Made by a program: the position numbers and the translations under genes
NCBI RefSeq assembly: GCF_022539505.1
Contig: NC_061514.1
Location: forward strand, 341,728,644 to 341,792,643
Source: Lolium rigidum
Lineage: Eukaryota; Streptophyta; Magnoliopsida; Poales; Poaceae
DNA length: 64,000 bases
Direction of reading: 5' to 3'
Part shown: one piece after another, positions 3,611 to 53,743 of the stretch
Numbering within the stretch: position 1 is the first letter of the stretch
How the letters are laid out: each line of letters opens with the position of its first letter
Notes under the pieces: model-generated
Database searches by the model: none
Seen by the model: the letters and a program-made list of their open reading frames with translations, nothing else
Told to the model about the DNA's origin: nothing

Positions 3611-3990
3611 TGACATAGGCATCCCCAATGGGCCTACCGAAGATAGTACCCGGGGTTTACTGAAGGCCCACTACTCGAAGAATAAGAAGATTCGGAAGCC
3701 CAAGATATTGTTAAGGAAAGCTAGAGTTGTAATAGGAAGCAGTATTTGTAATCTTGCGGGAGGAGTTAGAAATCTTGACTCTGTAACTTGTACATTACGA
3801 ATCCCTCGGCTCCACCTCCTATATAAGGGGGGGTCGAGGGACGAAGAAATCATCGAATCATTGTTTCTAAAACCCTAGTTTCATAATCGTCGAGTACTTT
3901 CGGCTGAAACCTTCGAGATCTACTTGCCCTCTACTTCCAACTAAACCCTAGCCTACAATCCGTAGGCATTGATAAGTTAATCCCTTGTCA
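3611..3990 (+). repeat. Tat-A 5' LTR (380 bp)
   Basis: Runs from TGACATAGGCATCCCC to TAATCCCTTGTCA. It should act as promoter and, in the 3' copy, as polyadenylation region. Differences from the 3' LTR: an A for G in the first 30 bp, loss of CCCG in the middle, a T in the G-run after the TATA box, and C for T near the end. Confidence 0.95.
3820..3826 (+). promoter_or_regulatory. TATA box of Tat-A 5' LTR
   Basis: TATATAA followed by a G-run lies in the middle of the LTR; transcription of the element would be expected to start about 30 bp downstream. Tat-C has TATATTA at the same place. Confidence 0.65.
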
Positions 3991-3991
3991 A

Positions 3992-4010
3992 TTGGCGCCG
4001 ACCGTGGGGA
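3992..4010 (+). other. Tat-A primer binding site
   Basis: TTGGCGCCGACCGTGGGGA begins one base after the LTR. The first 8 bases after the leading T (TGGCGCCG) match the complement of the plant tRNA-Asp 3' end; beyond that the match is poor. Tat-C has TTGGCGCCGTCTGTGGGGA here. Confidence 0.8.
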
Positions 4011-4036
4011 TTAGAGGCGTCAAGGATCCGATCTCG

Positions 4037-6330
4037 ATGGCACGTTCAAGATCGTCGACTTCGTCAACCGCAAACAACGCAATGGATCGAGGTAAACAGA
4101 TCGCAACTGGTCTTGTCGATTTTGTTCCTCACCCGCCCTCCCGTTTGGATGCATATGCATATCTGGAGGAGCCTATGGAGATGACGTTCGGAAGGTTTCA
4201 CTTTCGCGTCGAGAAAGAAGGATCGTATCGTGTCGAAATTCCGATTTCATCGGGATCGTCGGCGGTCGATTCCGATTTTTCAAGCTATACATCGTCAACC
4301 GAATCAGGAGAGGAAGAAACTTCGTCGTCACGCTTCATCAGCACTAGGGCAAGAGAAAAACTTGCCAAGATCTTCAGCGACATGTCGTTTGAGTCATCTG
4401 CGGACTCTTATATAAGCGATGGCTCAAGCAGTGTCGACAGCTACAACTTCATAGACAAATCTACCACAGTGGGCAAGGTCTTCGCCAATCTTAATGATGG
4501 TGTCACCAAACTCGACATAGATCTGGATACAAAATATCATCAGATTTATGTTATCGGAGAACCAAGCCGTGACCAGGAGGAAACATCTGAGGCTTTCGAC
4601 GATTTGGGAAACCCATACGTCGATCCCTCTAATCGCGACAAGGTCTAGGCGATAAATACGTCGGACCTGAGCCTCGCGATAGAGTCCAGCTCCCGCAGGC
4701 AGCATGGGATAGAGCCGCAAGAGCTATGGATGGCTCAGAACCAATGGCTACAACAGCCACGCCAGCAGAGTTGCAAGCATATCAATATAGGCTCGCACGA
4801 GCTGCAAGGGAATTGCAAAAACAGACAGATGCTTTAAATAGAAGAAAGGAGGCAGCCTTGCTTCAAGCAGGCGAAGAGCGGAGTTAAGTCGACAATCTGG
4901 AACTTCGGGAGATAGCCACAGAGAAGCTCGGAACGAGCAAGGTCAAGATTGCAACATATACCCGAAGGAGAAAGAGAGTACCTGGTTCAAAACCTCGACA
5001 TGTCTTTTATGTCGATAGACACAAGAGGAAATATTATCCCCAAGACACCGAAGCTGGGTATATGGCGACACAAGCCTTTATCCTTGCGTCTAGGCCACCT
5101 CCGGAGACCCAAGAGAGGCACTATACAACATGGCAGTGGCGGGAGCCGAAGCCATGGGAACGGCGTTTGCATCAACACCGCCGGAGGGAGCGACAAGGCA
5201 AAATAGTCCACGACCTGCGGCGGCAGCAGCGAGCAAGCTGTCGAAGGAACAAGTGGAGCAAGAGACACGGCAGCACAAGCAAGGGTGGACAGAGCACGGC
5301 AAATCGAAGGGAACATCGGCATTCCCCAGAATTAAACGACGAGGATATGTGCGGTTTGCCGTGCTTCACAAGGAGAGTACGAAAAACTCGAGTCCCTTCG
5401 GGATTTAAGTTGCCTGATAACTTCAAGAAATTCGACGGCCTGCAAGATCCAGAGGATTGGCTAGTTGATTACCTCGAGACGGTGAAGCTAACTGGAGGGA
5501 CTAGGGCAACAGCTATGCAAAGCATCCAAGTGCATTTAAGTGGAGCCGCACGATCTTGGATCAAAAAGCTTCCTCCAGGGTCTATCGACAGTTGGGATAG
5601 CTTCGAAGACATATTCGTCAAGAATTTCCGGTCCACCTGCAAGAAACCCGCATCTCTAGAGGAATTACGGGCGTGTCGACAGAAGCTGACGAGCCAATGA
5701 GAAAATATATCCAAAGGTGGAACATCATCAAAAACTCGGCGAGAAAATATATCCGACGAGAGAGCAATAGATGCGTTTGTCGCGGGGATCGGGCGTGGAG
5801 ATTTTGTCGAGGATTTGGGAAGGACTAATCCAAAGACGGTGTCCGCATTAATGGAAATAGCAAACAGATGGGCGAGATGGAGAAGATGCTGTCCACAACA
5901 AACGGCATAGGTCGCCGGAGGAAGACCGCGGTCGAAATTATCAACCGAGGCGACGATTTCCTCGGCAGTACTCGAGCTATGATGCTCCGGGACAAATCTC
6001 GGCCGGTTTCCGAGCAAATGCAGGAGGAAACAACAGAGATGATTACCAGAGAAGTAATGAGCAACGAGGCGACAATAGAGATGAATCTCGAAACAATAGG
6101 CAAAATAGCGGGCCAAGGTTCCAGAGGCCTTTCGTGTCTCCCGAAGAAATGATGAACGGGCCGTGTCAAATGCATTTTTTCTCGACGACGAACGGAAAGA
6201 GACAGTCGGGACATCTCGCGAAGGATTGTCGCAATTTCCAGGCAATGTTGAGATATGCGGGGGCATGCTAATGCTCGAGCAGCACAAAGAAATCCTCGAG
6301 AACCCAGAAGTGAGGTTCACTTACCACCTC
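4037..6330 (+). pseudogene. gag: Tat-A gag, frameshifted
   Basis: Gag forms the particle that packages the element RNA. The first ATG after the primer site (4037) opens MARSRSSTSSTANN. The frame breaks near 4633 and 4865 (one-base losses relative to Tat-C) and again near 5055 and 5690. The conserved retrotransposon gag core is at about 5400-5680, with the DPEDWLVDYL, AARSWIKKLP and SFEDIFVKNF blocks. A basic, Arg/Asn-rich tail follows. The terminal knuckle region has a CQMHF...GHL.KDC layout (more readable in Tat-C) rather than the usual CX2CX4HX4C. Present copy cannot give one continuous protein. Confidence 0.85.
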
Positions 6331-6380
6331 CTCCCGCAATTACGGACGACAATCGACATCAGCTCAGAATAGCGGCAGCA

Positions 6381-7200
6381 CCTGCACCACCGCCTTACAT
6401 TGATCCTAATTCTAACGGAGCGGTCTCGATGATTCAGAAGGGAAGGCCATCCAATAGAACTCAGAAGGTAATCTCGCGGCAGGTGTTCATGGCAGAGAAA
6501 ATGCCTCCACCAACAGTCGAGTACCTTAATTGGTCGGGGCAAGACATTGGCTTCACTATAGCGGATCATCCACGAGCAAGTTCCTCGACCGAGGCGGTCA
6601 GCACTCATACTACCGAGCGGTCATCGCAGGATTTGACGTATCTCGCGTGTTTATAGATGGCGGCAGCAGCTTAAACCTTATGTACGCAGATACATTAAGA
6701 AAGATGAACATATCCCTAGCAAACTTGAAGCCAACAGACACGAGATTCCACGGTATCACACCAGAGAAGCCAAGCTATTCGCTGGGGAAGATTAATCTCG
6801 ACGTTCAGTTTGGGACCCGAGAAAATTACAGAATCGAGAAGTTGGAGTTTGAAGTTGTAGATTTCCCGTCACAGTACCACGCTCTGTTGGGACGACCGGC
6901 ATACGCTAGATTTATGGCGGTACCACATTATACGTACCTGTTGTGGAGGATGCCTGGACCTAAGGGACCAATCACAGTCAAAGGAAGCTTCGCCCTAGCC
7001 GATAAATGTGATAAGGATTTTCATCGAATATCAGAAACTTTCGGGATGCAAGCTGAGTATTTGGCGTCAAGGCTCATGACTGACTACGACGTGCTGCCAG
7101 ACGTTGGAAGGCCAAATAAAGAATCAACTTTCAACACTGAGAAAAATTCTAAGGAGGTGCAGATTCACCCGACGGATCCAAAAAGACGACATCCATCGCA
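6381..7200 (+). pseudogene. Tat-A protease region
   Basis: Retropepsin-like aspartic protease that would cut the Gag-Pol polyprotein. The frame 6530-7324 reads VFIDGGSSLNLMY at about 6640-6680, where the active-site triplet is Asp-Gly-Gly instead of Asp-Ser/Thr-Gly. The flap and core regions (FHGITPEKPSY, FPSQYHALLGRPAYARFM) follow, the latter being the conserved ALLGR box. Upstream, the linker (PPPYIDPNSNGAVSMIQ) is in another frame. The frame continues toward the reverse transcriptase but shifts near 7190. Confidence 0.8.
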
Positions 7201-8560
7201 AATGACATGGACCTCGCATAGGAAAGCGCGCTCGTCGAGTTCCTCCGTGAGAACTGGAAAATCTTCGCATGGTGTCCAGCCGACATGCCGGGAGTACCCG
7301 GGGAACTTGCCGAGCACCACCTAAACTTGGATCCACTAGCGAGGCCAATCAAACAACCTCGCGACGTTTTTCGGAACCAAATCGCAAGGCTATGCTATCG
7401 GAAATTGATCGGCCGAGAGAAGCTGGTTTTATCAAAGAGCTGCATACAGAGGCCACATGGGTGGCAAACCCAGTGTTGGTGCCAAAGAAAAACACTAAAG
7501 TCCTTCGCATGTGCGTCGATTTTACGTGTTTCAATAAACATTGTCCAAAGGATCACTTTCCTCTCCCGAGGATCGACCAAATTATCGACTCCACGGCAGG
7601 ATGTGAACGTCTTTCCTTCCTGGACGCATATTCCAGGTTATAACCAGATTAGATTAAAAGAAGAAGATGAAGTAAAAACAGCGTTCATCACACCTTACGG
7701 CGTGTTTTGCTACAGAACAATGCCATTTGGTTTGAAAAACGCGGGAGCAACATATCAGAGGATGATGCAGAAGTGTTTGGCGACACAGATTGGAAAAAAT
7801 GTGCAAGTATACATCGACGATGTAGTCATAACGTCAAAAAAGGGGACAACGCTGATCGAAGATCTCAAGGAAACTTTTGACAACCTCGACAAATTCTGCC
7901 TCAAGCTGAACCCGACGAAGTGCTCCTTCGGTGTCCCAGTAGGAGAACTTCTTGGGTTCCTAGTTTCAGCAAGAGGGATTGAAGCAAATCCCGACAAAAT
8001 ACAAGCCATCGTAACAATGAGGAAGCCAACAAAGTTGAAAGAAATACAGCAATTAACTGGGCGAGTCGCAGCTTTGAGCAGATTCGTCGCCGAGGCTGGG
8101 AGAAAAAGCACTACCGTTCTACGCCTTAATAAAGCAAGGGGAGAAATTCCAGTGGAACGAAGAAGCCGATAGAGCTTTCGAGGATTTGAAACGCACAATC
8201 TCGACACCACCAGTCTTGGTGGCGCCGAAAGAAAAGGAACCTCTCCTACTGTACATCACAGCCACACCTCAGGTGGTTAGCACGGTGCTAGTTGTCGAAA
8301 GAGAAGAAGAAGGAAAACTCCATGGAGTGCAAAGGCCGGTATATTTCATTAGTGAAGTTTTATCGCCTTCCAAACAGCGGTAGCCGCAGTACCAGAAACT
8401 AGCATATGGAGTGATTACAACGGCAAGAAAGTTGCGCCACTATTTTTCGGCACACCCGATAATAGTAGTCAATGAAGCACCTCTCTCAAATATACTGAAT
8501 AATCCGGAAGCTACGAGGCGTGTCTCCCTTTGGGGAATAGAACTTTCCCTCGGGACATCA
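7200..8560 (+). pseudogene. Tat-A reverse transcriptase and gypsy RNase H, frameshifted
   Basis: Copies element RNA into DNA. The frame 7269-7643 holds the RT start (ELHTEATWVANPVLVPKK, LRMCVDFTCFNKHCPKDHFP); one extra base near 7637 shifts it to the frame 7285-8172. That frame carries FGLKNAGATYQRMM and the catalytic YIDD box at 7810-7821 (YIDDVV where many elements have YVDD). Thumb and connection follow. Another shift near 8095 leads to the gypsy-type RNase H segment (8186-8560), which has an in-frame TAG at 8381-8383 where Tat-C has a Tyr codon. Not functional as it stands. Confidence 0.9.
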
Positions 8561-8574
8561 CGTATGAAAAAAGG

Positions 8575-9060
8575 AAGGCAATCAAGTCGCAAGTTTTGCC
8601 AGATTTCATCGCAGAGTGGATGGAGCTGCAAAACACGGGACCCCCAGATTTGTCGAGAACTTGGACCATGAACTTTGACGGCTCCAAGAGAGTAGAAGGA
8701 GCTGGCGCAGGAGTGATACTTATATCACCTGAAGGCAACAAGCTAAAATATGTCCTACGGATGACGTTCCCAAACACATCCAACAACGAAGCAGAATACG
8801 AAGCCCTCATACACGGGATGAGAATGGCGAAAGCTTGCGGCGCAACTCGACTAAAATTTTTTGGCGACTCACAATTGGTGGCTCAGCAAGTTATGAACCA
8901 ATGTGATGCAGTCAATGATAGCATGATAGCATACAAGGAGGCGTACAATGAGCTTGAGAAGCTGTTTGATGGATGCGAGGTAAATCACATCGATGAGATT
9001 GAGCAATGATGAAGCCGACGTTCTCGCAAACATCGGGTCGCAGAGTGTCTTCCAATCCCG
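8575..9060 (+). pseudogene. Tat-A second (archaeal-type) RNase H
   Basis: A second RNase H fold follows the gypsy one, which is typical of the Tat lineage. The frame 8530-9009 contains the acidic residues in order: MNFDGS (Asp), NNEAEYEAL (Glu), FGDSQLV (Asp), and the last Asp in SNDEADVLA after a frameshift close to 9000. It would remove RNA from the RNA-DNA hybrid; in Tat elements it is thought to complement a degenerate first RNase H. The frameshift truncates it before the last catalytic residue. Confidence 0.8.
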
Positions 9061-9111
9061 CCAGGCGTATTTTGGGAAGAAATAGCGGAGAGATCCACAA
9101 AGCCAAAGAAG

Positions 9112-10446
9112 GTGCAGAAAAAAGCAAAGGAAGAAAAAACTTCGGCGTCTCTCAAAGAAGCCGTGGAGGACAAAGAGGACCAAGAGCTTGTGATGATGGT
9201 AGAAGTTCCTTGGATGCAAGCGTACATATCGTATATCCTCAGGAAGGAAATACCCGACGATCCAGTCGCGGCAAGGCGAATTATTCGACGATCCAAAGCT
9301 TTCACAGTGGTCAAAGGGGAGCTATACAAGCGAAGTATTTCAGGCGTCTTACAAAGGTGCGTCACACCCGAAGAAGGAAGAATAATCCTAAAGGATGTGC
9401 ATGAAGGAATATGTGGTCACCACGCAAGCAGTCGAGCTATTGCAGCCAAAGTTTTTCGGGCAGGATTTTACTGGTTGACAGCAATCGAGGATGCAAAAGA
9501 GATAGTACGGACCTGCGACGCGTGCCAGAGATTTGCCGCAAAACCTCACTCTCCGGCGGCAGAACTGATGCCAATACCATTGACGTGGCCCTTTGCCCAA
9601 TGGGGACTCGACATGGTAGGCAAGTTGCACAAAGCCTCGCCAGGAGGATATGAGTACCTGTTGGTTGCTGTCGACAAATTCACCAAGTGGGTAGAAGCGA
9701 AGCCAATAAATTTACCAGATGCAGCATCGGCAATAAAGTTTGTGAAAGGCCTCGTTTTTCGGTTCGGAGTGCCTCATAACATTGTCACAGACAACGGCAC
9801 TAACTTTACAGCTAAGGAGTTCAAGGCATACTGCGCAGAAGTAGGCATTAAATTGCACTTTGCGTCAGTAGGACATCCACAAACCAATGGCCAAGTCGAA
9901 AAAGCCAATGGTATCATCTGCAACGGCATTAAAAAACGTCTGCTAGGACCGCTTGAAAAGGCTTGACATACCTGGCCAGAGGAGTTGCCAAGTGTTTTGT
10001 GGAGCATCCGAACAACACCAAATACGGCGACACAAGAAACTCCGTTTTTCCTCGTCCACGGAGCCGAAGCAGTATTACCAATTGAAATAGAACACGATTC
10101 CCCAAGAATAAAAGAGTATGACGAGGAAACATCATGAACAGCTCGGGAGGATGATATGGATGCACTCGATGAAGCTCGAGATGAAGTACTATCACGAGTT
10201 ACCAAGTACCAGCAAGACCTGAAGAATTACCACAGTCGACGATTGCGGCCTAGATCTTTCCAGGTCAGCGATTTGGTCTTACGGCTTAACCAGCAAAGTA
10301 CTGAGAAGCTCGAGTCACCATGGTTGGGACCTTACGTCGTCACGGAAGTCATCGACGGAGGAGCGTACAGGATCAAGGACAAGAAGACAGGGGTTCCCGA
10401 GAAAAACCCCTGGAACGTGGCGCAGCTCAGGCGGTTCTACGCCTAA
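9112..10446 (+). pseudogene. Tat-A integrase with one internal stop region
   Basis: Inserts element DNA in the genome. The frame 9112-9966 has the zinc-binding N-terminal part (HEGICGHH ... CDACQR) and the DDE core: Asp in GLDMVGKLH, Asp in TDNGTNF, Glu in GQVEKANG. A TGA at 9964-9966 and a further TGA at 10135-10137 break the frame; Tat-C reads through at the first site. The C-terminal part (10156-10446, PWLGPYVVTEV, RIKDKK.GVP) resembles the GPY/F-type integrase tail. No chromodomain is seen, as expected for Tat. Confidence 0.88.
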
Positions 10447-11055
10447 AGTCGAAAGATAGTCTTCCTTTGTAAAAATACAATGTACTTGAAACGCCCGCGA
10501 GTTTTCAGACGCACTCTTTTCCTTTTCGGGGCACCGAGTGGGGCCGGAAAGGTTTTTAATGAGGCGGGCTCGCGGTGCTGCAATATAATAAAGATAGTGG
10601 AGATATACTTCTTATTCTTCGACACGCTCGGGGGCTCAATGCCTTCAAGTTACAAAATATATACAATACAGATAAACTAGATTTACCAAAATATTTCGCC
10701 TTGGTACAAGAATACCTCGCCAAATAGAACATCGGAAGCTAACAATTATAAATATAGTGTACTCGTCAAAATTCTATTGCTTTGGTCCAAAAACCTCGCA
10801 ACAAAAATATAAAACGTCACCACCAAGACACTTGGAGGCTCGTGCCCATCGACAGCAAAATATATAGATTCCCTCGCAATAAGAGAAAAATCTTCGGGAT
10901 AAACAAAACAGTATAAGCTCCAGCCAAAGGCTCGGGGGCTTGACGATCAAAAATAGAAACAATACATATTTACGGAGCTTACAACTTTACAATATAAATC
11001 ATGTCTACAAAGACGTATCAATGGTGAACCTACAGCAAGAACAAGGAGAAAACCC
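10447..11055. other. Tat-A spacer after integrase
   Basis: No supported gene. It contains CTCGGGGGCT at about 10628 and 10931, matching the motif of the 3' repeats, and would hold the end of the antisense transcript. Confidence 0.6.
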
Positions 11056-14000
11056 TCAATGGATACCTAGCACATGGTCTATGGTCGTTCGTTCATTGGA
11101 CGGACGAGTACTATGCTCGGCATAGCTACCCTTCACAAAGAACTCAGCGTCCATCCGAAGAAGTTCATCCATCATATCTTCGGCTACAGGAGTCACCAGA
11201 TCATCAATTTTGCCCACATTTCTCTTTTTCTTCGACATTTTAGCCAGGCACGTGGGAACAATTTGATTCATGGGCAATTTTGGATAGCAAATGTTTATCA
11301 TCATCATAGCAAATCTTGCGCCAGCAGAGAGTTGAGCCCGCACAAAGCCATGGATTCGAGGAGCATCTCGAAATTTTTCCATTAATGCAGGAAGAGTTTC
11401 TGGCATCTTGTTGCGAGGAAACATGGTTCCATAAACTAAAAATAAAGTCTTCGTACAGAAGTCAAGGAAATCACGGACCTGAGCTGCGCGATCTTGGAAT
11501 CTGACAATTTGGCGGGTACGCTCAGGAGTAACCCAAAAGTTAGAACCATGTTGTGCAGCCAGTCTGAGCAAAATATTGGTTCGAGCTTCAACACGTTGAT
11601 CTTCGGCAGCAGTATCCAAAAATGAGCCTGGTACAGCAAATAAACTGTCAAGGAAGGAAAAATAGTGAAAACAACATTCAGCATGATTATGAACAGGAAA
11701 CATACCTGTCATGTCCAAGCTGGCGTCAGTCATTAGCTGAAGCATATAATTTTCTCGAGAGGAAGCTTCGGTAGCCTCAGCAACAGCAGCATCCTTTGCA
11801 GCAATGGCTTCTTTTGCCTGTTGAAGAGCGATATTCTCCCTTTCAGATGCTTGTCGAGATTGTTCCATCATCGCAAGAGTTTGTTTCTTCATGGATTGAA
11901 GTTGTTGGCGCAGTTCTTGCAAATCTTGCGACAAATGATGTCTTGACGAACCTTCGATGAGGTTATCGTTGACTAGTGTTTTCTTCGAGAAGGAGGAAGC
12001 AGGAGAAGTATCGGCAGAATGAGGATTGGCAGAGTAGTTATCAAACACCAACTGGAAAAGAAAATTCCAATATCAAAGGATGGCACAAGACAGAATTCCA
12101 TTGATCTTCAAGAAATTTACATGGATATTACAGAGGAGTTCTTCAAAAGGATTACTAAGATAATTGTCGCCAAAGCTAATATGGCGACAATAGCTAAAGA
12201 AATAGAGAAAATAAAAATAAGGGGCATTCAACTAGACCTCCGGCTTTGATGAGCTAGGAGTTGAAGATGGCTTGATCCCGAGATAAGACAGGATTTTCTT
12301 CGTGTTGGGCTTTGCTGCCTTGATCAACGATCGCCATTTTGTTTGTTCTATCTGTTCTGTGTCGCCTACTTTCGCCCAGTCGATAGTTTGTTGGCTATCA
12401 GCGACCAAGGCAACAGTGCTTTCCACAGCAATTTTCATGTTCTCCTGGCGCATCTTCAGTCCAAGATCTTCTGGTGGATTGAAGTCCTTGGCAAGAGCAA
12501 GGAAAGTCTTGGGTTCCGTTTTCTTCGGGAAGAAAAAGGGGAACAGCCGTGACAATCCTGCGTCAGCTTGTTCAATGCCTTCGCGAGCTTCGGTTCCATG
12601 AAATTCAAGGACAGCGAGCGCATCAAGAAGAGGATCGTCATCAGGATCTTCAAGCTCGAATTCTTGGTTTGTCTTACCTGTCGCAAAAATATATGTTGGT
12701 CGACAGTAAGTAAAGTAAAAAATATAAAAATAACAAAAGAGAGAGCAGGTCTAAGAAAAATAGAATGGATCGACAAAATTACCGACAAAGCGCCGGTTCT
12801 GCGCGATCAAGCGCTTGATGATCGCCTTTTCACGAGTAGCCTGCGCGGCTTTGTGCTCGTTCAAAGCAGTTTCGACATCATCAAGTCTTTTTTGAAGGTC
12901 TTTGACACCAGCAGCTTCTGCCTTGGCTTTATCAGCCTCCGCTTTAGCATTGCTAGCATCAAGTTCAGCCTTCTTGCGAGCCGCTTCACTTTGCTCTAAT
13001 TTCTGAGTAAGCGTGTCAACTAACTTGTTGGCTTCTGCAAGTTTTTCTGCCAAAATAGTCAAGGATCGTCAAAATTGCAACAAAACAGGAGCAAGAAGTT
13101 ATAAACAAGAACCAGCAAAAAATTATTACCTTCAGTCTGGCTGGCATACTCACAGTACCCAACGAATTGGGCACCGATGCGAATAAGGTCTTTGATCATA
13201 GGCTGTCAAAGAAGAATAAAGAAAGAAAATGTCGGTATGGGAAAAATATGATGGCATAAAAAAGCAAACAGAGGAAATATAGACAGTGACAAGAAAAATA
13301 AGAACTTACATCATCCAAGAGAGGGTTAGAGGAGCTACTCAATTGGAGGGTAGGCTCCGGGATCGTTTCAATCCTCGTCCTTTTCGGTGAAGGGACAAGG
13401 GGGCTTGAAGGAGGAGTAGGAGCGCCGACGTCTTGTTGAGGAGGCGAGGATTCCTCTCCTTCAACTGGTGTCTCCGAAACAACTAGAGTATGTGACGTAC
13501 TCGTTCGAGCAGCCACATCAAAAGCTGGTACTTCTCCCTCATCATCACTGCGATTAAATGTTGGCAGCATAAAAAGCAAGATAGAAAAAATCTTCGAGTA
13601 CAAAAATAAAAAAAAAGTGACTTACGAACTGATGAGGGCCTCGAGGTATGGATCATAAGTTGCCTTCTGACGTGAAGGAGCAACTTCTTCGGCTTTGGAG
13701 GTGCCGGAATCTTCGACATCATTCCTCTTCCTTTTGTTCTTGGGAGAAACAGCAGGAGGAGGAGATTGTGCCGATGCAGTGCCTTCAGAGGCAGCCTCCT
13801 TTTCAGAAGATCCCGCAGATTTGTGAGAATCTGCGGGTTCATTCACAAAAGAGGGGGCATCTTGGTTGTCGTCGGTGACAATGGCCCTTTCCTCGACTTC
13901 TCCACCTTCAGGAAGGGGAGGAAGCGAGACAAGATTTGGATGGTTCTGTACAAAAACAGGGGAAGATGTCAAAAAAGGAGTTACAAAAGATAGCGAGGCA

Positions 14001-14920
14001 ATAACAAATCAATCGACAAAGTTTACCTTGGGAAGCGCATTGGTGGCGATGTACGGCTTTACACGACAAGAAGAAGGGACAGGATCTTTTTTGCTGAGAG
14101 AGGAGATTTTCCGGACAAGCTTCTCTAAGTCCTTGACCTCCAAATCTGCTGACAGCCGATCTGCGTCCTTGTCGCCAGCATACTTCCAAAGAGGGTATTT
14201 GCGAGCCTGAAGAGGCTGCACTCTAGTTCTAAGAAAGTATGTTGTGATTTGGATACCTGACAACTCTTTGCCGCGAGTATTTTGCAACTCACGGATGCGA
14301 GTCATCAAGGCCTCTGTCGATGTTTTTTCTTCCTCGGTAGCCTCTGCATCCCAGGAGCGGCGGCGAAGGATTTTCTCGGCACCATCGAAAGGAGGGATGT
14401 TGTCTTCAGCACATCCATGGTTTTCCTCCTGAATGTACAACCATTTCTTGCGCCACCCTTGAACTGAGTCAGGGAGTTTGACGTCGAAGTAATCGACTGT
14501 GGGGCGAACGGAAATAACAACGCCGCCTATATTATAGGCGACATTGGGAGAGCCATTGCGGCGACAAAAGAAAATGCGCTTCCATAGCGCCCAGTTAGGC
14601 TGGACGCCAAGGAAGGCTTCACAGAGGGTGATGAAAATAGAGATATGGAGGATAGAATTGGGCGTGAGGTGGTGAAGTTGAAGGCCATAAACAAAAAGCA
14701 ATCAGCGGAGGAAAGGATGAATGGGGGCGGAAAGACCGCGGATGAGATGGTCGATGAAACTTACCCGATACCCCATTGGAGGGGTTGGGTAGCTTTCTTC
14801 ACTAGGGAAGCACAACACTTTGGGCTTCTTGTTAATCCCTAGCTTCTTCAAGAGGTTGATGTCCTGAGTGGAAATTTTGGACCTTTCCCACTCCGCGCTT
14901 CCCAGATCTGCGGCAGCCAT
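11056..14920 (-). pseudogene. Tat-A antisense gene, eight exons, one in-frame stop
   Basis: Spliced gene opposite to gag-pol. Exons: 14920-14027, 13945-13626, 13547-13310, 13202-13130, 13046-12783, 12677-12238, 12051-11706, 11627-11056. Every intron is GT-AG, phases agree at all junctions, total 3147 nt (1048 codons plus stop). Donors include GTAAAC, GTAAGT twice and GTATGT; acceptors include TTTTTGTACAG and TTTTCTTTTCCAG; intron 6 has a weak GTCTAG donor. Exon 1 resembles the family called 'putative gypsy type transposon' (LLFVYGLQLHHLTPNSILHI). Exon 2 has a basic KNKRKR stretch, exons 5 and 7 are coiled-coil-like (Ala/Lys/Glu heptads), and exon 8 is a globular part of unknown role. A TGA at 14702-14704 replaces a Gly codon of Tat-C. 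The start is ATG in MAAADLGSAEWERSK; the frame is also open upstream. Function unknown. Confidence 0.82.
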
Positions 14921-15091
14921 TGACGATTCAGGCGTACTGTGCTTGATCAGCCGACGCGGTGGCATCAACAATGGCGCAGGAATGCAGCTTGGAGAAGATG
15001 AGTTTCGGAAGTTGTGGGACGCAGGAGGAGGTTTTGTAGAGGAGAGCAGGAGAACGGCGCGGGCGGAAGTGCTCGAGGAAGAAGAAGGAGA

Positions 15092-15104
15092 TCTTATATA
15101 GAGG
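15092..15104 (-). promoter_or_regulatory. Candidate TATA box of the antisense gene
   Basis: CTCTATATAAGAT reads on the minus strand about 170 bp before the antisense ATG (14920), which suits a plant core promoter with a leader of about 140 nt. Tat-C has CATCTATTTAAGG at the matching place (55133-55144, minus). Confidence 0.55.
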
Positions 15105-15410
15105 TGCGGCGAAGCGGCGGACCGTTGGATGGAAAAAGTGTGCGGCAGATGATAACCACGTGGAAACAAGGGTAAAAAAGTATTTTAACACTGGAGAAGT
15201 TACGGTACGTGCGCCAGGAAAAGCGGAGGACGTGTGTCTCCCACTTACACGATGTGTCAAGATAGTGGATACTTTGGGCCCGCAAGGCAGTGGGAGAAAA
15301 CCTCTCGCGATTTTCGGACTCGTAATCGTGGCTATCGTCAGCAATAACGTCACCTTGGCAGAAAGAGAAATTCGACTCAATAGCTGCATAAAAAGGCGAC
15401 ATGCACAAGT

Positions 15411-15713
15411 ATTGGAGAGCCTTTGATCAAATACAAGTTTTTGGTCAAATGCTCGGGGGCTACTTTGAAAAAATGAAAAGATCAAGAAATACAAAATAGA
15501 AATGGCGTGAGCCTATGATCAAATACAAATATTTGTTCATAGCCTCGGGGGCTACTCCCATCGGGAGCGCTGTTCGCGCACCCGAGAAATTATAAAACTT
15601 CGGGAGGGAGAGAAAATATAATGGCATAAGGCGTGGAGCCTACAACCAAGCACAAGTTCTTGGCTGTAGCCTCGGGGGCTACTCCCATCAGGAACGCTGT
15701 TCGCGTGCCCGAT
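15411..15713 (+). repeat. Tat-A 3' region tandem repeats with CTCGGGGGCTAC
   Basis: Three diverged units end in CTCGGGGGCTAC at 15452, 15544 and 15671 (spacings 92 and 127 bp). Each begins with a GAGCCT.TGATCAAATACAA-like stretch; two go on to CCCATCGGGAGCGCTGTTCGCG-type sequence. The same 12-mer stands as part of the tract before the 3' LTR (16342-16353). Tat-B and Tat-C have the same arrangement. Confidence 0.85.
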
Positions 15714-16339
15714 GAAATTGTAAAAAAGAAAAGAAAGAATGAAAAGAAGAAAGATAGAAGAGCAAAAGAGTATATTTCGAGTTATAAATAACTCTGCATA
15801 TACTCCCATCGGGAGAGCAATATAAGTCATCTTTGACTCAATAAAATGTGCCATTCCAACAGCCGAATAAGCACTCGACAATATATTCTCAGAACGTCAA
15901 AGTTGCGATCAATTTCTGAATGCCGCAAAACTTTGCGAAGGTAAGACCCCAGATCCATTCTGTGAGGCGTGGCGCCGTCTCTGACGTCGGTTTGCTACTT
16001 TTATCCGTATCAACAGATACGAAGAAAAATCCTAACGGACGCGTTAGGTACCCGATAAATATGACTCGGGACTCGATAGAATGGTAAGACCTTAAGCGGC
16101 ACCTGTCGAAGTTTACACCGATATCCCGAAATCATGTCCAGGGACGTGATTTTGAAGTAGGTTTTTGCGGATTTCCACTAGAGCGAGTTAACTAGTACCG
16201 ATCCGTCAGATGAACTAGCCCCAACTACCATTATCCCTGTACAATATAGAAATTTATGTGAAGAAATATAGAAAAGTTTTAAAGTTGTCGAGTAAAAATA
16301 AACAGTGGAGATTTTCCTTGACTCTACGATTCAAGCAAA
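15714..16339. other. Tat-A 3' untranslated region
   Basis: No gene seen. It is shared with Tat-B and Tat-C (for example GACGCGTTAGGTACCCGATA near 16040) and ends at the polypurine tract. Confidence 0.65.
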
Positions 16340-16353
16340 ATCTCGGGGGCTAC
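16340..16353 (+). other. Tat-A polypurine-tract region
   Basis: ATCTCGGGGGCTAC lies immediately before the 3' LTR and is the expected start site of plus-strand DNA synthesis. Its purine core is only GGGGG, and it matches the three upstream repeat copies. Confidence 0.65.
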
Positions 16354-16737
16354 TGACATAGGCATCCCCAATGGGCCTGCCGAAGATAGTACCCGGGGTT
16401 TACTGAAGGCCCACTACTCGAAGAATAAGAAGATTCGGAAGCCCAAGATATTGTTAAGGAAAGCTAGAGTTGTAATAGGAAGCAGTATTTGTAATCTTGC
16501 GGGAGGAGTTAGAAATCTTCCCGGACTCTGTAACTTGTACATTACGAATCCCTCGGCTCCACCTCCTATATAAGGGGGGGGCGAGGGACGAAGAAATCAT
16601 CGAATCATTGTTTCTAAAACCCTAGTTTCATAATCGTCGAGTACTTTCGGCTGAAACCTTCGAGATCTACTTGCCCTCTACTTCCAACTAAACCCTAGTC
16701 TACAATCCGTAGGCATTGATAAGTTAATCCCTTGTCA
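16354..16737 (+). repeat. Tat-A 3' LTR (384 bp)
   Basis: Same termini as the 5' LTR, followed directly by the CATGG duplication at 16738-16742. Confidence 0.95.
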
Positions 16738-36334: not shown

Positions 36335-36721
36335 TGACATAGGCATCCCCAATGGGCCTGCCGAAGATAGTACCCGGGGTTTACTGAAGGCCCACGACTC
36401 GAAGAATAAGAAGAATCGGACGCCCAAGTTGTTATTAAGGAAAGCTAGAGTTGTATTAGGAGATAATATTTGTAATCTTACGGGATGAGTTGGAAACCCT
36501 CCCGGACTCTGTAACTTGTACAATACGAATCCCTCGGCTCCACCTCCTATATTAGGGGGAGTCGAGGGACAACGAAAAGCATCGAATCATTGTCTCTCAA
36601 ACCCTAGTTTTCATAATCGTCGAGTACTTTTCGGCTGAAACCTTCGAGATCTACTTGCCCTCTACTTCCAACTAAACCCTAGTCTACAACCCGTAGGCAT
36701 TGATAAGTTAATCCCTTGTCA
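36335..36721 (+). repeat. Tat-C 5' LTR (387 bp)
   Basis: TGACATAGGC to CCCTTGTCA. The core promoter box reads TATATTA instead of TATATAA (near 36549), which may weaken transcription of this copy. Confidence 0.95.
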
Positions 36722-36722
36722 A

Positions 36723-36741
36723 TTGGCGCCGTCTGTGGGGA
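36723..36741 (+). other. Tat-C primer binding site
   Basis: TTGGCGCCGTCTGTGGGGA, one base after the LTR; same site and start as in Tat-A. Confidence 0.85.
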
Positions 36742-36767
36742 TTATAGGCGTCAAGGATCTGATTTCG

Positions 36768-39021
36768 ATGGCACGTTCAAGATCGTCGACTTCATCAACT
36801 GCAAGCAACGCAATGGATCGAGGTAAACAGATCGCAACTGGTTCTGTCGATTTTGTTCCTCACCCGCCCTCCCGTTTGGATGCATATGCGTATCTGGAGG
36901 AGCCTATGGAGATGACGTTCGGAAGAATCCACTTTCGCGTCGAGAAAGAGGGAGTGTATCGTCTCGAAATTCCGATCTCGTCGGGATTGTCGGCGGTCGA
37001 TTCCGATTTTTCGAACTCAACATCGTCAATCGAGTCAGGCAAAGATGAGACTTCATCGCCACGCTTCATCAGCACCAGGGCAAGCGAAAAGCTCGCCAAG
37101 ATCTTCAGCGACATGTCCTTCGAGTCATCCGCGGACTCCTATATAAGCGATGACTCGAGCAGTGTCGACAGCTTTAACTTCATCGACAAATCCACTACAG
37201 TGGGAAAAGTCTTCACCAATCCTTATGATGGTGTCACCAAACATAGCACAGATCTGAATACAAAGTACCATCAGATTTATGCCATCGGAGAGCCAGGCCG
37301 TGATCAGGAGGAAACATCTGAGGCTTTCGACGATTTGGGAAATCCATACGTCGACCCCTCTAATTTACGACAAGGTCTAGGCAATAAATATGTCGGACTT
37401 GAGCCTCGTGATAGAGTTCAACTCCCGCAAGTAGCATGGGATAGAGCCGCAAGAGCTATGGACGGCTTAGAACCAATGGCCACAACAGCCACGCCAGAAG
37501 AGTTGCAAGCATATCAATATAGGTTCGCACGAGTTGCAAGGGAGTTAGAAAAACAGACCGCTGCTCTGAACAGAAGAAAGGAGGCAGCCTCCGCATCAAG
37601 CAGGCGAAGAGCAGAGTTAAGTCGACAATCTGGAACTTCGGGAGATAGCCACAGGGAAGCTCGGAACAGAGCAAGATCAAGGCTGCAAAACATACTCGAA
37701 GGAGAAAGAGAGCACTTGGTTCAAAACCTCGACATGTCTTTTATGTCGATAGACACGAGAGGGAACATCATCCCCAAGACACCAGAAAGCTGGGTATATG
37801 GCGACACAGGCCTTTATCCTTGCATCCGAGGCCACCTCCAGGAGATCCAAGGGAGGCACTGTACAACATGGCAATGGCAGGAGTCGGAGCCATGGGAACG
37901 GCGTTTGCATCAACACCTCCCGAAGGAACAGCAAGGCAAAATAGTCCACGACCTGCGGCAGCAGCTCCTGAAGGAACAAGTGGAGCAAGAGACACAGCAG
38001 CACAAGCAAGGGTGGACAGAGCACGACAAAGTAGAAGAGAACATCGGCATTCCCCAGAACTAAACGACGAGGACATGTGCGGTTTGCCATGCTTCACAAG
38101 GAGAGTCCGAAAAACTCGAGTCCCTTCGGGATTCAAGTTGCCCGATAGTTTCAAGAAATTCGACGGCCTGCAAGATCCAGAGGATTGGTTAGTCGATTAC
38201 CTAGAGACGGTGAAGCTCACGGGGAGGGACCGGAGCAACGGCTATGCAAAGTATTCGAGATACACCTGAGTGGAGCCGCGCGATCCTGGATAAAGAAACT
38301 TCCTCCAGGATCTATCGACAGCTGGGACAGTTTTGAGGACGTATTCGTCAAGAACTTCCGGTCCACCTGCAAAAAACCTGCATCGCTAGAGGAATTGAGG
38401 TCGTGTCGACAAAAGCCAGATGAACCAATGAGAAAATATATCCAAAGATGGAATATCATTAAAAACTCGGCAAAGAATATATCTGACGAGAGAGCAATAG
38501 ATGCGTTTGTAGCAGGAATCAGGCGAGGAGATTTTGTCGAGGATTTGGGGAGGACCAATCCAAAGACAGTATCCGCATTAATGGAGATAGCAAACAGATG
38601 GGCAGATGAAGAAGATGCCGTTCACAACAAACGGCGTAGGTCACCAGAGGAGGACCGCGGCCGAAATTATCAGAGTAGGCGACGATTTCCTCGGCAGTAC
38701 TCGAGTTATGATGCTCCTGGGCAAATTTCGGCTGGCTTCCGAGCAAGCGCCGGAGGAAATAACAGAGATGATTACCAGAGGAGCAACGAGCAGCGAGGTG
38801 ACAATAGAGATGACTCTCGAAACAACAGGCAAAATACCGGGTCAAGGTTCCAGAGACCTTTTGTGTCCCCTGAAGAAATGATGAACGGGCCGTGTCAGAT
38901 GCATTTTTATCTCGACAATAATGGAAAAAGACGGTCGGGACACTTGCAAAAGGATTGCCGAAATTTCCGAGGCAATGTTAAGGTGGGCGAGGGCATGCTA
39001 ATGCTCGGGCAGCGCACATAA
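36768..39021 (+). pseudogene. gag: Tat-C gag, frameshifted
   Basis: The ATG at 36768 opens MARSRSSTSSTASN. The first 340 codons are open to about 37790, where an extra base ends the native frame; the frame is resumed in 37820-38269 and, after one more shift near 38222, in 38185-39021. It holds an acidic Ser-rich N-terminus, an Arg-rich helix (about 37530-37690), the gag core (DPEDWLVDYL, AARSWIKKLP, SFEDVFVKNF), an Arg/Asp/Asn-rich tail and the CQMHFYLDNN...GHLQKDC knuckle-like end. Better kept than in Tat-A but not one frame. Confidence 0.87.
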
Positions 39022-39050
39022 ATCCTCAAGGACCCGGGAGTGAGATTCAC

Positions 39051-39950
39051 TTGCCACCTCCTCCCGCGATTACGGAAGAAAATCGACATCGGCTCGGAAT
39101 AGCGGCGGCACTTGCTCCACCACCTTATGTTGATCCCAACTCTAACGGAGCGGTCTCGATGATTCAGAAAGGCAGGTCATCCAATAGAGCTCAGAAAGTA
39201 ATCTCGCGACAGGTGTTTATGGCAGAGAAGATGCCCCCACCAACAGTCGAGTACCTTAACTGGCCAGGGCAAGATATTGGCTTCACAATAGCTGATCATC
39301 GATAGCAAGTTCCTCGACCAGGGCAGTCAGCACTTATCTTACCAGCAGTAATTGCAGGATTCGATGTATCTCGAGTGTTCATAGATGGCGGCAGCAGTTT
39401 AAACCTTATGTATGCAGATACACTAAGGAAGATGAACATATCCCTAGCAAACCTGAAACCAACCGACACGCGATTCCACGGTATCACACCGGAGAAGCCA
39501 AGTTATCCGGCTGGGGAAGATTAATCTCGACGTTCGGTTCGGGACCGAGAAAACTACGAGGATAGAGAAGCTGGAGTTCGAAGTCGTGGATTTCCCGTCA
39601 CAGTATCACGCCTTGTTGGGACGGCCATCATATGCCAGGTTTATGGCAGTACCACATTATACATAATTGTTGTGGAGGTTACCTGGACCTAAGGGACCAA
39701 TCACAATCAAAGGAAGCTTCGCACTAGCCGATAAATGTGACAAGGATTTTCATCGACTATCAGAAACTTTCGGGATGCAAGCAGAATACATGGAGTCAAG
39801 GCTTACGACTGATTATGATGTGCTACCAGATGTGGGGAAGCCTAATAAAGAGTCAACCTTTAACAACGCAAAGGATTCCAAGGAGGTGCGAGATTCACCC
39901 GACGGATCCAAAGAAGACGACGTCCATCGCGGCAAACATGGACCTCGCAT
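39051..39950 (+). pseudogene. Tat-C protease region
   Basis: The linker frame (39051-39305) ends at a TAG at 39303-39305. The protease core follows with the Asp-Gly-Gly active site in VFIDGGSSLNLMY at about 39375-39412, a frameshift near 39507, and a TAA at 39664-39666. The ALLGRPSYARFM box is intact. Confidence 0.78.
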
Positions 39951-39977
39951 AGGAAAGCGTGCTCGTCGAGTTCCTCC

Positions 39978-41290
39978 GTGAGCATCTGGAAAATCTTCGC
40001 ATGGTGTCCAGCTGACATGCCAGGAGTACCCAGGGAACTTGCCGAGCACCACCTAAACTTGGATCCATTAGCGAGACCAATCAAACAACCTTTGCGGCGT
40101 TTTTCGGAGCCAAACCGCAAAGCTATGCTGTCAGAAATCGATCGACTAAGAGAAGCTAGTTTTATCAAGGAGCTTCATACAGAGGCCACATGGGTAGCAA
40201 ATCCAGTGTTGGTGCCGAAGAAAAACACTAAAGTCCTTCGCATGTGCGTCGATTTTACGTGTCTCAATAAACATTGTTCAAAGGATCAATTTCCCCTCCC
40301 AAGGATCGATCAAATTATCGACTCCACGACAGGGTGCGAACGTCTTTCCTTCCTAGATGCATATTCTGGTTATAACCAGATCAGATTAAAAGAAGAAGAT
40401 GAGGTCAAAACAGCGTTCATCACACCTTATGGAGTATTTTGCTATAGAACAATGCCTTTTGGTTTGAAAAACGCGGGAGTAACATACCAGAGGATGATGC
40501 AGAAGTGCTTGACGACACAAATTGGGAAAAACGTACAAGTGTACATCGACGATGTCGTCATAACATCAAAAAAGGGGACGACGCTAATCGAGGATCTGAA
40601 GGAAACCTTCGACAACCTCGACAAGTTCTGTCTCAAATTGAACCCAACGAAGTGTTCCTTTAGCGTCCCTGCAGGAGAACTTCTTGGTTTTCTTGTTTCA
40701 GCAAGAGGGATTGAAGCAAATCCCGAAAAAATCTAAGCTATCGTAACAATGAGGAAGCCAACAAAGTTGAAGGAAGTACAACAGCTAACTGGGTGAGTCG
40801 CAGCTTTAAGCAGATTCGTCGCCAGATTGGGAGAAAAAGCGTTACCGTTTTACGCTCTAATCAAGCAAGGAGAGAAATTCCAATGGAATGAAGAGGCAAA
40901 GCGAGCTTTCGAGGATTTAAAGCGCACAATTTCGACACCACCAATCTTAGTGGCACCAAAAGAGAAGGAACCCCTCCTGCTATACATCGCAGCCACACCT
41001 CAGGTGGTTAGCACGGCGCTAGTCGTTGAAAGAGAGGAAGAAGGAAAACTCCACGGAGTGCAAAGGCCGGTATATTTCATCAGTGAAGTTTTATCGCCTT
41101 CAAAACAGCGGTACCCGCAGTACCAGAAGCTAGCATATGGAGTAATTACAACAGCAAGAAAATTGCGCCACTATTTTTCGGCACACTCGATAATAGTAGT
41201 CAACGAAGCACCTCTATCAAATATACTGAACAATCCAGAAGCCACAGGGCGTGTCTCCCTTTGGGGAATAGAACTTTCCCCTCGGGACAT
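39978..41290 (+). pseudogene. Tat-C reverse transcriptase and gypsy RNase H
   Basis: RT is open from 39978 to a TAA at 40734-40736 (a Gln codon in the relatives). Catalytic YIDD at 40542-40553; FGLKNAGVTYQRMM upstream. A TGA lies near 40795; after it the frame from 40827 holds the gypsy RNase H segment (LVAPKEKEPLLLYIAATPQV) and runs without a stop into the second RNase H. Confidence 0.9.
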
Positions 41291-41819
41291 CACGTATGAA
41301 AAAAGGAAGGCAATCAAGTCGCAAATTTTGCCAGACTTCATTGCAGAGTGGATGGAGTTGCAAAATACAGGACCCCCAGATTTGTCGAGAACCTGGACCA
41401 TGAATTTCGATGGATCCAAGAGAGTAGAAGGAGCTGGTGCAGGGGTGATACTCATATCACCTGAAGGCGACAAATTGAAGTACGTCCTACGGATGACGTT
41501 CCCAAACGCATCTAACAATGAAGCAGAATATGAAGCCCTTATACACGGGATGAAGATGGCGAAAGCCTGCGGCGCGACTCGACTAAAAATCTTTGGCGAC
41601 TCACAATTGGTAGCTCAGCAGGTTATGAACCAATGTGATGCAGTCAATGACAGCATGGTGGCATACAAGGAGGTGTACAACGAGCTTGAGAAGCTGTTTG
41701 ATGGATGCGAAGTAAATCACATCAGTAGGCTGAGCAATGATGAAGCCGATGTTCTCGCAAACATCGGGTCGCAGTGGCCTCCCAATCCCGCCGAGGGTGT
41801 TTTGGGAAGAGATAGCTGA
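41291..41819 (+). pseudogene. Tat-C second RNase H (archaeal type), domain intact
   Basis: The frame continues from the first RNase H. Acidic residues are all present in order: MNFDGS, NNEAEYEAL, FGDSQLV, LSNDEADVLA. It ends GRDS at 41819. Here, unlike in Tat-A, the catalytic set is complete, which supports the domain call for the family. The lack of linkage to a working RT makes it non-functional in this copy. Confidence 0.85.
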
Positions 41820-41897
41820 GAGATCCACAAAGACAAAGAAGGCGCGAGAAGAAGACGAAGGAGGAGAAAACTTCGGCGCCTCTCAAAGAAGTTCCAG

Positions 41898-43191
41898 ATG
41901 AAGAAGAGGACCAGAGAGCTGGTGATGATGGTAGAAGTCCCATGGATGCAAGCGTACATATCGTATATCCTAAGGAAAGAAACACCCGACGATCCAGTTG
42001 AAGCAAGGCGAGTTATTCGACGATCCAAAGCCTTCACAGTGGTCAAAGGGGAGTTATACAAGCGAAGTATTTCGGGCGTGCTGCAAAGGTGCGTTACACC
42101 CGAAGAAGGAAGAATAATCTTAAAGGACGTACACGAGGGAATATGTGGTCACCACGCGAGCGATCGAGCTATTGCGGCTAAGGTTTTTCGGGCTGGATTT
42201 TTCTGGTTGACAGCAATCGAGGATGCAAAAGAGATAGTACGAACCTGCGACGCGTGCCAAAGATTCGCCGCAAAACCACACTCCCCGGCAGCGAGGCGAT
42301 GCCAATACCATTGTCTTGGCCCTTTGCCCAATGGGGACTCGATATGGTGGGCAAATTACACAAGGCTTCGCCAGGAGGATACGAGTACATGTTGGTTGCT
42401 GTCGATAAATTCACCAAGTGGATAGAAGCGAAGCCGATAAATTCACCAGACGCAGCGTCAGCCATCAAATTCGTGAAGGGCATCGTTTTTCGGTTTGGAG
42501 TACCTCACAGCATCGTCACAGACAATGGCAGTAACTTTACGTCCAAGGAGTTCAAGGCATACTGCGCGCGAAGTAGGCATCAAATTGCACTTCGCGTCAG
42601 TTGGGCACCCGCAAACCAACGGCCAAGTCGAGAAAGCCAATGGTATCATCTGCAACGGTATTAAAAAGCGCCTGCTAGGACCGCTTGAAAAGGCTCGGCA
42701 TACTTGGCCAGAAGAATTGCTAAGTGTTTTGTGGAGTATTCGAACAACACCAAATACGGAGACACAAGAAACTCCGTTCTTTTTAGTCCACGGAGCTGAG
42801 GCAGTACTACCGATCGAAATAGAGCATGACTCCCCAAGAGTCACAGAGTATGACGAAGAAACTTCAAGAAGAGCTTTGGAGGACGATGTGGATGCACTCG
42901 GCGAAGCTCGGGATGAAGTACTCTCACGAGTCACCAAGTACCGACGGGACACGAAAAACTACCACGGTCGACGGTTGCGGCCAAGATCTTTCCGGGTCGG
43001 CGATTTGGTCTTACGGCTCAATCGGCAAAGTACTTGAAAAGCTCGAGTCACCATGGCTGGGCCCTTACATCGTCACGGAAGTAATCGAAGGAGGAGCGTA
43101 CAGGATCAAGGACAAGAAGACAGGGGTTCCTAGAAAAACCCCTGGAACGTGGCGCAGCTCAGGCGTTTCTACGCCTAGAGTCGAAATATAG
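41898..43191 (+). pseudogene. Tat-C integrase, frameshifted
   Basis: Zinc-binding part (HEGICGHH, CDACQR) in the frame 41898-42425; the first Asp (GLDMVGKLH) and second (TDNGSNF) in 42254-42664; the Glu (GQVEKANG) in 42495-43037; the tail (PWLGPYIVTEV) in 42826-43191. At least three one-base changes (near 42292, 42568, 43035) separate the parts. Confidence 0.87.
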
Positions 43192-43737
43192 TCCTCCTTT
43201 GTAAAAATACAATGTACTAAAATGCCCGCGAGTTTTCAGACGCACTCTTTTCCTTTTCAGGGCACCGAGTGGGGCTGGAAAGGTTTTTAATGAGGCGGGC
43301 TCGCGGTGCTGCAATATAACAAAATATAGTGATGAGATACATATCTTTTCCTCGACATACTCGGGAGATTACGCCTCGAAGTTACAACATATACACAACA
43401 TAGATAAATCTAATGGGCAAGAAATATTTCGCCTTGGTATCAAATACCTCGCCAAATAAAAAGAAAGTACAAAATAGCAATCGGCAAAAGAACAAAATAC
43501 TCGGGGGCTTGTACCCGCAAATATAGTATACTCAATAAAAATTCGGGTGCCTTGGTTTACAACCTCGCATACACAATAAAGAGATTTACCACCGAAACAC
43601 TCGGGGGCTTGAGGAAGAAAAATAGAAATATTTCCTAAACTTTACAATATAGTATATGTTTGCAACAATACAGGACGCCATTTTAGAGAAAAATCGACAG
43701 GTTAAAAGAAAAAGAAAGTCAATTCCGGCTCAATATA
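43192..43737. other. Tat-C spacer after integrase
   Basis: No supported gene. CTCGGGGGCTTG occurs near 43501 and 43602. It matches the Tat-A spacer. Confidence 0.6.
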
Positions 43738-46700: not shown

Positions 46701-47534
46701 GCGCATTGGCGGCGCTGTATGGTTTTACTCGACAAGAAGACGGGACAGGATCTTTTTTGCTGAGGGAGGAATTTTTCGGACAAGTTTTTCTAAGTCCTTG
46801 ACCGGTAAATCCACCGACAGGCGATCCACATCATTGTCGTCAGCATACTTCCAGAGGGGATTTTTGCGAGCCTGTAGAGGCTGCACTCTGATTCTAAGGA
46901 AATATGCCGTAATCTGGATACCCGATAGGTCTTTGCCGCGGGTGTTTTGCAGCTCGCGGATGCGGGTCATCAATGCCTCCGTCGCCGTTTTTCTTCCTCG
47001 GTAGCCTCTGCGTCCCAGGAACAGCGGCGGTAGATTTTTTCGGCACCATCAAAAGGAGGGATGTTGTCTTCAGCACATCCGTGATTCTCCTCATGAATGT
47101 ATAGCCATTTTTTGCGCCACCCTTGAACTGAGTCAGGGAATTTGACATCGAAGTAATCGACATCAGGGCGAACGCAGATAACAACGCCGCCTATGTTATA
47201 GGCGACATTGGGAGAGCCATTGCGGCGACAAAAAAAGATACGCTTCCACAACGCCCAGTTAGGCTGGACGCCGAGGAAGGATTCGCAAAGGGTGATGAAG
47301 ATGGAAATGTGGAGGATAGAGTTGGGTGTGAGGTGATGAAGTTGCAGTCCATAAACAAAAAGCAACCCCCGAAGAAAAGGGTGAATGGGGGCAGAAAGAC
47401 CGCGGATGAGATGATCGACGAAACTAAACCGATACTCCATTGGAGGGGTCGGGTAGCTCTCTTCGCTGGGGAAGCACAGCGCCTTGGGTTTCTTGCTGAT
47501 CCCCAGTTTCTTCAGGAGGTTGATGTCTTGGGCA
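43738..47534 (-). pseudogene. Tat-C antisense gene, main part
   Basis: Counterpart of the Tat-A antisense gene, 3' of the element D insertion. The splice junctions are kept: donor AAG/GTAACT near 46690, acceptor CAG/AACCATCC near 46613, donor TTC/GTAAGT near 46294, acceptor CGCAG/TGGTGACG near 46210, donor GATGAT/GTAAGT near 45971, and the GTCTAG donor near 44907. The acceptor before the coiled-coil exon is changed from CAG to CGT (near 45704). Exon 1 is free of the Tat-A stop (FLRGLLFVYG) but has a frameshift near 46985. Exon 2 keeps a basic KNKRKR-like patch (KGKGLMSK frame overlaps it). It cannot be expressed in this copy because its start is cut off by element D. Confidence 0.8.
47530..47534. 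repeat. Target-site duplication of element D, left copy (GGGCA)
   Basis: GGGCA here and at 54904-54908 flank the TGTT...AACA element. Removing the insert restores the antisense exon around its 18th codon. Confidence 0.93.
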
Positions 47535-49550: not shown

Positions 49551-49600
49551 TAGAGTAGGCCTAGTAGTAGCAGTGCACTAGGCACCAGATCCCCCTTTTG

Positions 49601-53740: not shown

Positions 53741-53743
53741 ATG

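Follow-up and report, generated by a model that had tools for sequence, protein, structure and literature searches.

Does the minus strand of a grass LTR retrotransposon carry one protein-coding gene interrupted by introns, or a series of open segments that merely happen to join? The question arises from a 64,000-nucleotide stretch of the Lolium rigidum genome (contig NC_061514.1; the window in what follows), in which eight minus-strand segments can be linked by seven GT-AG introns with consistent phases. On the evidence of two copies of the element, the locus is very probably an antisense accessory gene of the TRP28/PF04195 type, carried by a Retand-type Ty3/gypsy retrotransposon and genuinely intron bearing.

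The element and the gene model

The copies of the element and of the gene are placed as follows.

3611..16737, plus strand: LTR retrotransposon copy 1, with LTRs at 3611-3990 and 16354-16737 and a 5-bp target-site duplication (CATGG)
36335..56757, plus strand: copy 2 of the same element, containing a nested LTR element at 47535-54903
43719..47534, minus strand: copy-2 homologue of the antisense gene, as far as the nested element, with the 5' end of the gene beyond it at 54904-55003

Copy 1 has plus-strand Pfam matches to gag, RT, RNase H, and integrase and a PBS-like stretch 3' of its 5' LTR. Its LTRs are unlike at 3 of 380 aligned sites, with 6 gap columns in addition; those of copy 2 are unlike at 6 of 385 sites, with 2 gap columns. 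The pol frame of copy 1 ends in a stop at about 10446. An earlier note on this DNA had set the gene opposite gag-pol within a gypsy element. The strand and the element are as it described, but the gene is situated past pol and therefore does not overlap gag-pol. The chain itself was reproduced exactly on the minus strand: eight segments, GT-AG introns, and 3147 nt from the ATG at 14920 to the TGA at 11056, with one internal TGA. Between that ATG and another one 45 nt upstream, at 14965, lie 15 codons for which pN is 0.090 and pS is 0.600 between the two copies (P = 0.0014), which makes the upstream ATG the likelier start. The gene thus probably begins at 14965 and comprises 3192 nt including the stop.

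15157..15162, minus strand: CACGTG (G-box-like) motif, seen by eye in both copies, about 195 nt upstream of the ATG at 14965
15093..15100, minus strand: TATA-like motif TATATAAG (TATTTAAG in copy 2), seen by eye, about 130 nt before the same ATG
14027..14965, minus strand: exon 1, which includes the in-frame TGA and the whole TRP28/PF04195 domain (residues 69-134)
14026-13946, minus strand: intron A, GT-AG
13626..13945, minus strand: exon 2, with a basic run, PKNKRKRN, at 13744-13721 (NLS-like by eye)
13625-13548, minus strand: intron B, GT-AG
13310..13547, minus strand: exon 3
13309-13203, minus strand: intron C, GT-AG
13130..13202, minus strand: exon 4
13129-13047, minus strand: intron D, GT-AG
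12783..13046, minus strand: exon 5, coiled-coil-like, with sub-threshold Pfam matches
12782-12678, minus strand: intron E, GT-AG
12238..12677, minus strand: exon 6
12237-12052, minus strand: intron F, GT-AG, with the non-consensus donor GTCTAG; alternatively the 3' UTR of a shorter product
11706..12051, minus strand: exon 7
11705-11628, minus strand: intron G, GT-AG
11056..11627, minus strand: exon 8, ending in TGA

The CACGTG and TATA-like motifs may represent the promoter of the antisense gene. Retention of intron G, which has a length that is a multiple of three and is free of stops in both copies, was considered and rejected. As protein, the readings from the two copies do not resemble each other, and no other intron is as diverged (0.465); for these reasons it is classed as an intron.

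Chain length and the case for introns

Chains of open segments were sought with free GT-AG chaining, allowing up to seven introns of 65 to 250 nt each, in the window cut into 82 tiles and in 500 dinucleotide shuffles. The best chain at the locus reached 3143 nt, compared to 1443 ± 178 nt for the shuffles. The earlier argument that seven phase-matched junctions would hardly arise by chance holds to the extent that the chain lies far above the shuffles, but it is weaker than proposed, since 6 of the 82 tiles yield chains of at least 3143 nt. In five of them the sequence is decayed sense gag-pol from copies 1 and 2, where chains extend to as much as 3385 nt because free chaining absorbs frameshifts. 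Chain length is therefore evidence of coding sequence and not of introns; the evidence for introns is the comparison with copy 2, together with a T content of 44 to 53% in introns and 19 to 29% in exons. The scan's longest chain, 3470 nt, is at 60001-63865, where the plus strand holds a stop-free frame of 877 codons (61182-63815).

It follows from these tiles that coding sequence not spliced in this way can also chain long, as might be expected if the open segments had come together by chance with no gene behind them. However, the longest chain in the 500 shuffles was 2093 nt, the excess of third-position differences between the copies is confined to the proposed frame, and there is a Pfam match to PF04195. 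We regard the probability of a chance chain as negligible.

Selection on the exons

All of the evidence on selection comes from one pairwise comparison, that of copy 1 with copy 2. In the proposed frame, codon positions 1, 2, and 3 have 153, 96, and 380 differences, respectively. Omega (NG86) is 0.147 over 1057 codons in this frame (bootstrap range, 0.118 to 0.180) versus 1.32 and 2.01 in the other two frames, and it is 0.12 for gag-pol, pooled over six copy-2 ORFs and thus close to the antisense gene; dS is inflated under NG86, and with fourfold-site divergence in its place the ratios become approximately 0.28 (0.119/0.43) for the antisense gene and approximately 0.19 (0.051/0.28) for gag-pol. 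By part, omega is 0.136 for exons 1 to 6 and 0.155 for exons 7 and 8. Furthermore, pN is lower than pS in each of the eight exons taken alone (Fisher P = 9e-45 to 0.018), with exons 3 (P = 0.018) and 4 (P = 0.014) the weakest. The earlier note had proposed a comparison of dN/dS between copies and had held that a ratio near 1 across all exons would speak against a gene. In this one pair, the ratio is well below 1 in every exon, so values near 1 were not what was found. As read from these substitutions, the comparison shows purifying selection on the antisense gene at the protein level, and the exon-wise pattern supports the earlier claim that a Tat/Retand-type gypsy element carries a multi-exon gene for a protein on its antisense strand.

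The introns present a different picture. At the fourfold sites of the antisense gene, 130 of 396 differ, and the divergence of the introns (p = 0.292) is similar, which indicates comparable rates of evolution in introns and at silent sites. Fifteen indels separate the copies within 718 nt of intron. GT and AG are both kept in six of the seven introns, the acceptor of intron D having been lost in copy 2. Overall, the intron places are common to both copies, and protein-level constraint is found on the exons and none on the introns, as far as two copies can tell. None of the seven exon indels is a multiple of three, and one of them is the target-site duplication, retained in the joined sequence; thus, the indels carry no frame-keeping signal, and they look like decay rather than frame-keeping evolution.

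Divergence is uneven along the element. Introns B and C differ at 35 of 185 sites versus 126 of 315 in introns A, D, E, and G (P = 1e-6), and fourfold divergence is 0.28 in gag-pol versus 0.43 in the antisense gene. We read this unevenness as a probable sign of mixed ancestry through recombination.

The same substitutions bear on a role for the antisense transcript as RNA, in which double-stranded RNA would act in silencing of the element and the protein would be irrelevant. Such a role has been proposed as possible, also alongside a protein (PMC7264820). Selection on the protein sequence argues against RNA as the sole product, and we consider this explanation highly unlikely.

Intron F and the number of products

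The least certain junction is intron F. Its donor is GTCTAG, unlike the other six, which are GTA or GTG, and if the intron is retained, the TAG of GTCTAG is an in-frame stop in copy 1. Copy 2 has the same six bases, but in a frame displaced by an upstream 1-nt insertion. The gene might accordingly make two products, with exons 1 to 6 stopping at this TAG (759 residues from the ATG at 14965) and exons 7 and 8 belonging either to a second gene or to an alternative 3' end. Besides the unusual donor, two observations point this way. Intron F (39 of 185 sites) is less diverged than introns E and G (65 of 153; P = 3e-5) and than the fourfold sites of exons 6 and 7 (34 of 96; P = 0.014). In both copies, its first half can also form a hairpin, though only a little beyond what shuffled sequence gives (z = -1.7 and -2.5). 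Intron F further contains, at 12140-12237, an inverted repeat, TTGTCGCC...GGCGACAA, in both copies.

Against two products, the 53 codons of exon 7 before its first Met are conserved as protein (pN, 0.130; pS, 0.358; P = 0.0028), and the exon 7-8 ORF (11056-12072) is closed 21 nt before the acceptor, which leaves no room for an upstream start. The beginning of exon 7 would therefore have to be spliced on. In addition, the exon 7 acceptor is kept in copy 2, and the phase of intron F (phase 0) fits exon 6, although introns A and C fit as well. Exon 7 thus appears to require splicing to a donor exon that could be any of several candidates. We consider two products possible but rather doubtful; under the eight-exon model, intron F is the weak junction. 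A check for duplication between exons 5-6 and 7-8 returned a 37-residue match that is weak (hhalign probability, 3.3; E = 0.013) and that was reached by 72 of 2000 shuffles for copy 1 and 1 of 2000 for copy 2, a hint of internal duplication.

Protein domains and motifs

Exon 1 contains a complete PF04195 (Transposase_28/TRP28) domain, matched on the minus strand at 14.5 to 14.8 kb over profile positions 2 to 67 of 69 (82.3 bits against Pfam's curated cutoff of 26.2; E = 3e-23, with the TGA read as W). Without read-through, the part after the TGA scores 59.1 bits (E = 4.9e-16). This match supports the link that had been suggested to the grass proteins annotated as "putative gypsy type transposon." Exons 2 and 3 have basic, NLS-like runs in both copies, and exons 5 and 7 have coiled-coil-like stretches, all recognized by eye; the latter are backed by sub-threshold Pfam matches alone. 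No Pfam match exceeded the curated cutoffs for exon 5, exon 6, or the exon 7-8 ORF, and a search of exons 1, 6, and 8 against NCBIfam gave a single match, far under its cutoff. Relatives of exon 1 were absent from the viral contigs, genome contigs, and plasmids searched, as were relatives of exon 8 from viral contigs. Single-sequence structure prediction for exon 1 gave a mean pLDDT of 35.7, which is not interpretable.

Lineage and origin

The element has the marks of the Retand lineage. One mark of the Tat clade is a further RNase H domain (aRH) that separates RH from integrase (PMC6317226), and the copy-2 ORF at 40797-41819 encodes RT_RNaseH (residues 57 to 161) followed by RVT_3 (203 to 322), a candidate aRH. 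In copy 1, the RNase H match is to the second domain alone, with integrase downstream at 9013-9966. Published Retand sizes are 315 to 1,194 bp for the LTR, 7,380 to 12,869 bp for the internal region, and 2,933 to 6,566 bp from POL to the 3' LTR (PMC11963269). Copy 1 lies inside all three ranges, with LTRs of 380 and 384, an internal region of 12,363 (3991-16353), and 5,907 from POL to the 3' LTR (10447-16353). No tandem repeats were detected between pol and the 3' LTR at the score used.

PMC11963269 describes antisense ORFs with TRP28, placed between pol and the 3' LTR, as a typical trait of Retand-lineage elements, and one is present here, between the pol stop and the 3' LTR that starts at 16354. 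In that survey, which covers recently active Retand elements of eudicots and monocots, 97% of the clusters have such ORFs; it describes 104 antisense ORFs, 57 of them with TRP28, and with short ORFs counted, TRP28 is present in every cluster except two. It also predicts TRP28 to be DNA binding.

These observations bear on the earlier view of a host-like gene traveling as cargo. A recently captured host gene would account for the intron-rich, host-like structure. However, PMC11963269 reports TRP28 antisense ORFs lineage-wide and no similarity to TRP28 outside transposable elements, and the gene is at the same place in both copies. Recent capture is thus very improbable, and because the ORFs occur throughout the Retand lineage, the gene is better regarded as the element's own old accessory gene, although it may have an ancient host origin.

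Relation to known antisense genes

The Retand ORFs of Vicient 2025 (PMC11963269) share their antisense place, domain, and element dimensions with the gene described here. They differ in being single ORFs of at least 600 nt, or shorter ones with TRP28, whereas the present gene has up to eight exons, with TRP28 in the first. Maize Grande gene23 is likewise an accessory gene that lies antisense, past pol and ahead of the 3' LTR, and a promoter of its own and a nuclear protein are reported for it (Gomez-Orte 2013, as reviewed in PMC7264820); the likeness lies in these described features. The antisense place is also shared by Silene Retand ORF4, which carries PF04195, and the rice RIRE2 aORF (via PMC7264820). 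Retroviral antisense genes such as HBZ of HTLV-1, with a nuclear product, provide an analogy only (comparison from PMC11963269). Plant LTR elements are generally without introns, the named exceptions being Ogre and EVADE (PMC12786077; for Ogre, also PMC6317226). In those elements, the introns are part of the sense transcript and have a role in gag-pol expression, in contrast to those described here, which lie in an antisense gene.

The kind of gene is thus already known from this lineage, and what looks to be new is the gene model, that is, one intron-interrupted gene rather than separate reading frames. The word "intron" is absent from PMC11963269 and from the 2020 review PMC7264820, both of which treat single ORFs; the review calls for a search for antisense and spliced transcripts. 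Judged by title and abstract, none of the papers listed in the literature searches (in one case, 20 of 369) describes a multi-intron antisense TRP28 gene; introns may have been described earlier, for instance in Gomez-Orte 2013 or Steinbauerova 2011. It is close to an even call, and we suggest it tentatively, that the Retand-wide antisense ORFs catalogued singly (TRP28 and separate Smc-like or coiled-coil ORFs) are exons of one conserved multi-intron gene, possibly with two alternative C-terminal modules (exons 5-6 and 7-8). Were this true lineage-wide, a retrotransposon lineage would have kept a gene and its introns through repeated reverse transcription owing to antisense orientation, which would make it a clear example from nature of intron persistence in a retroelement. 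In that case, surveys requiring a single long ORF (600 nt for PMC11963269 and 250 codons for PMC6317226) would have fragmented and undercounted the gene, and the full protein would so far have escaped analysis. Splicing and function would be testable with existing strand-specific plant RNA-seq.

In the mechanism proposed here, host RNA polymerase II would transcribe the antisense gene from a promoter that belongs to the gene itself, some 130 nt before the ATG, and the host spliceosome would remove the introns. The product would enter the nucleus, associate via its coiled coils, and bind DNA, thereby regulating the element. DNA binding and nuclear import are suggested by published relatives and by the motifs noted above, while splicing, a single eight-exon transcript, and a regulatory function are what we infer from the DNA. 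The introns would outlast reverse transcription since, in a genomic RNA complementary to the gene, they would not be recognized, an argument that we consider sound.

Decay of the copies

The antisense gene is now broken in both copies. Copy 1 has 1 lesion in the joined gene (3189 nt) versus at least 14 in gag-pol (6162 nt), a contrast that is at most suggestive, since exon bounds were picked as open and the contrast is absent in copy 2, where there are at least 4 in 3055 nt of antisense exon, besides the nested insertion and the lost acceptor, and at least 12 in 6200 nt of gag-pol. Disruption of the gene in copy 2 is by frameshifts, by loss of the intron D acceptor, and by the nested insertion. 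The nested element is a different LTR element, with LTRs that are 97.8% identical and a 5-bp duplication (GGGCA), and its insertion point is in exon 1 of the copy-2 gene. Many single-base shifts are found in gag-pol of copy 1 (3998-10446) and copy 2 (36722-43178), with 40 one-base indels between them. Their presence despite near-identical LTRs may reflect either quick decay, earlier decay followed by mobilization in trans, or sequence errors.

A third copy, at 19610-22022, is shortened. Its pol (matching 7293-8199) runs almost straight into the 3' end (15201-16737), and the antisense gene is absent from this fragment. The flanks of copy 2 (34943-36336 and 56758-56891) match, in inverted orientation, one unbroken stretch at 17105-18635 (88.6% and 98.5%, respectively), which looks like an empty version of the copy-2 insertion site.
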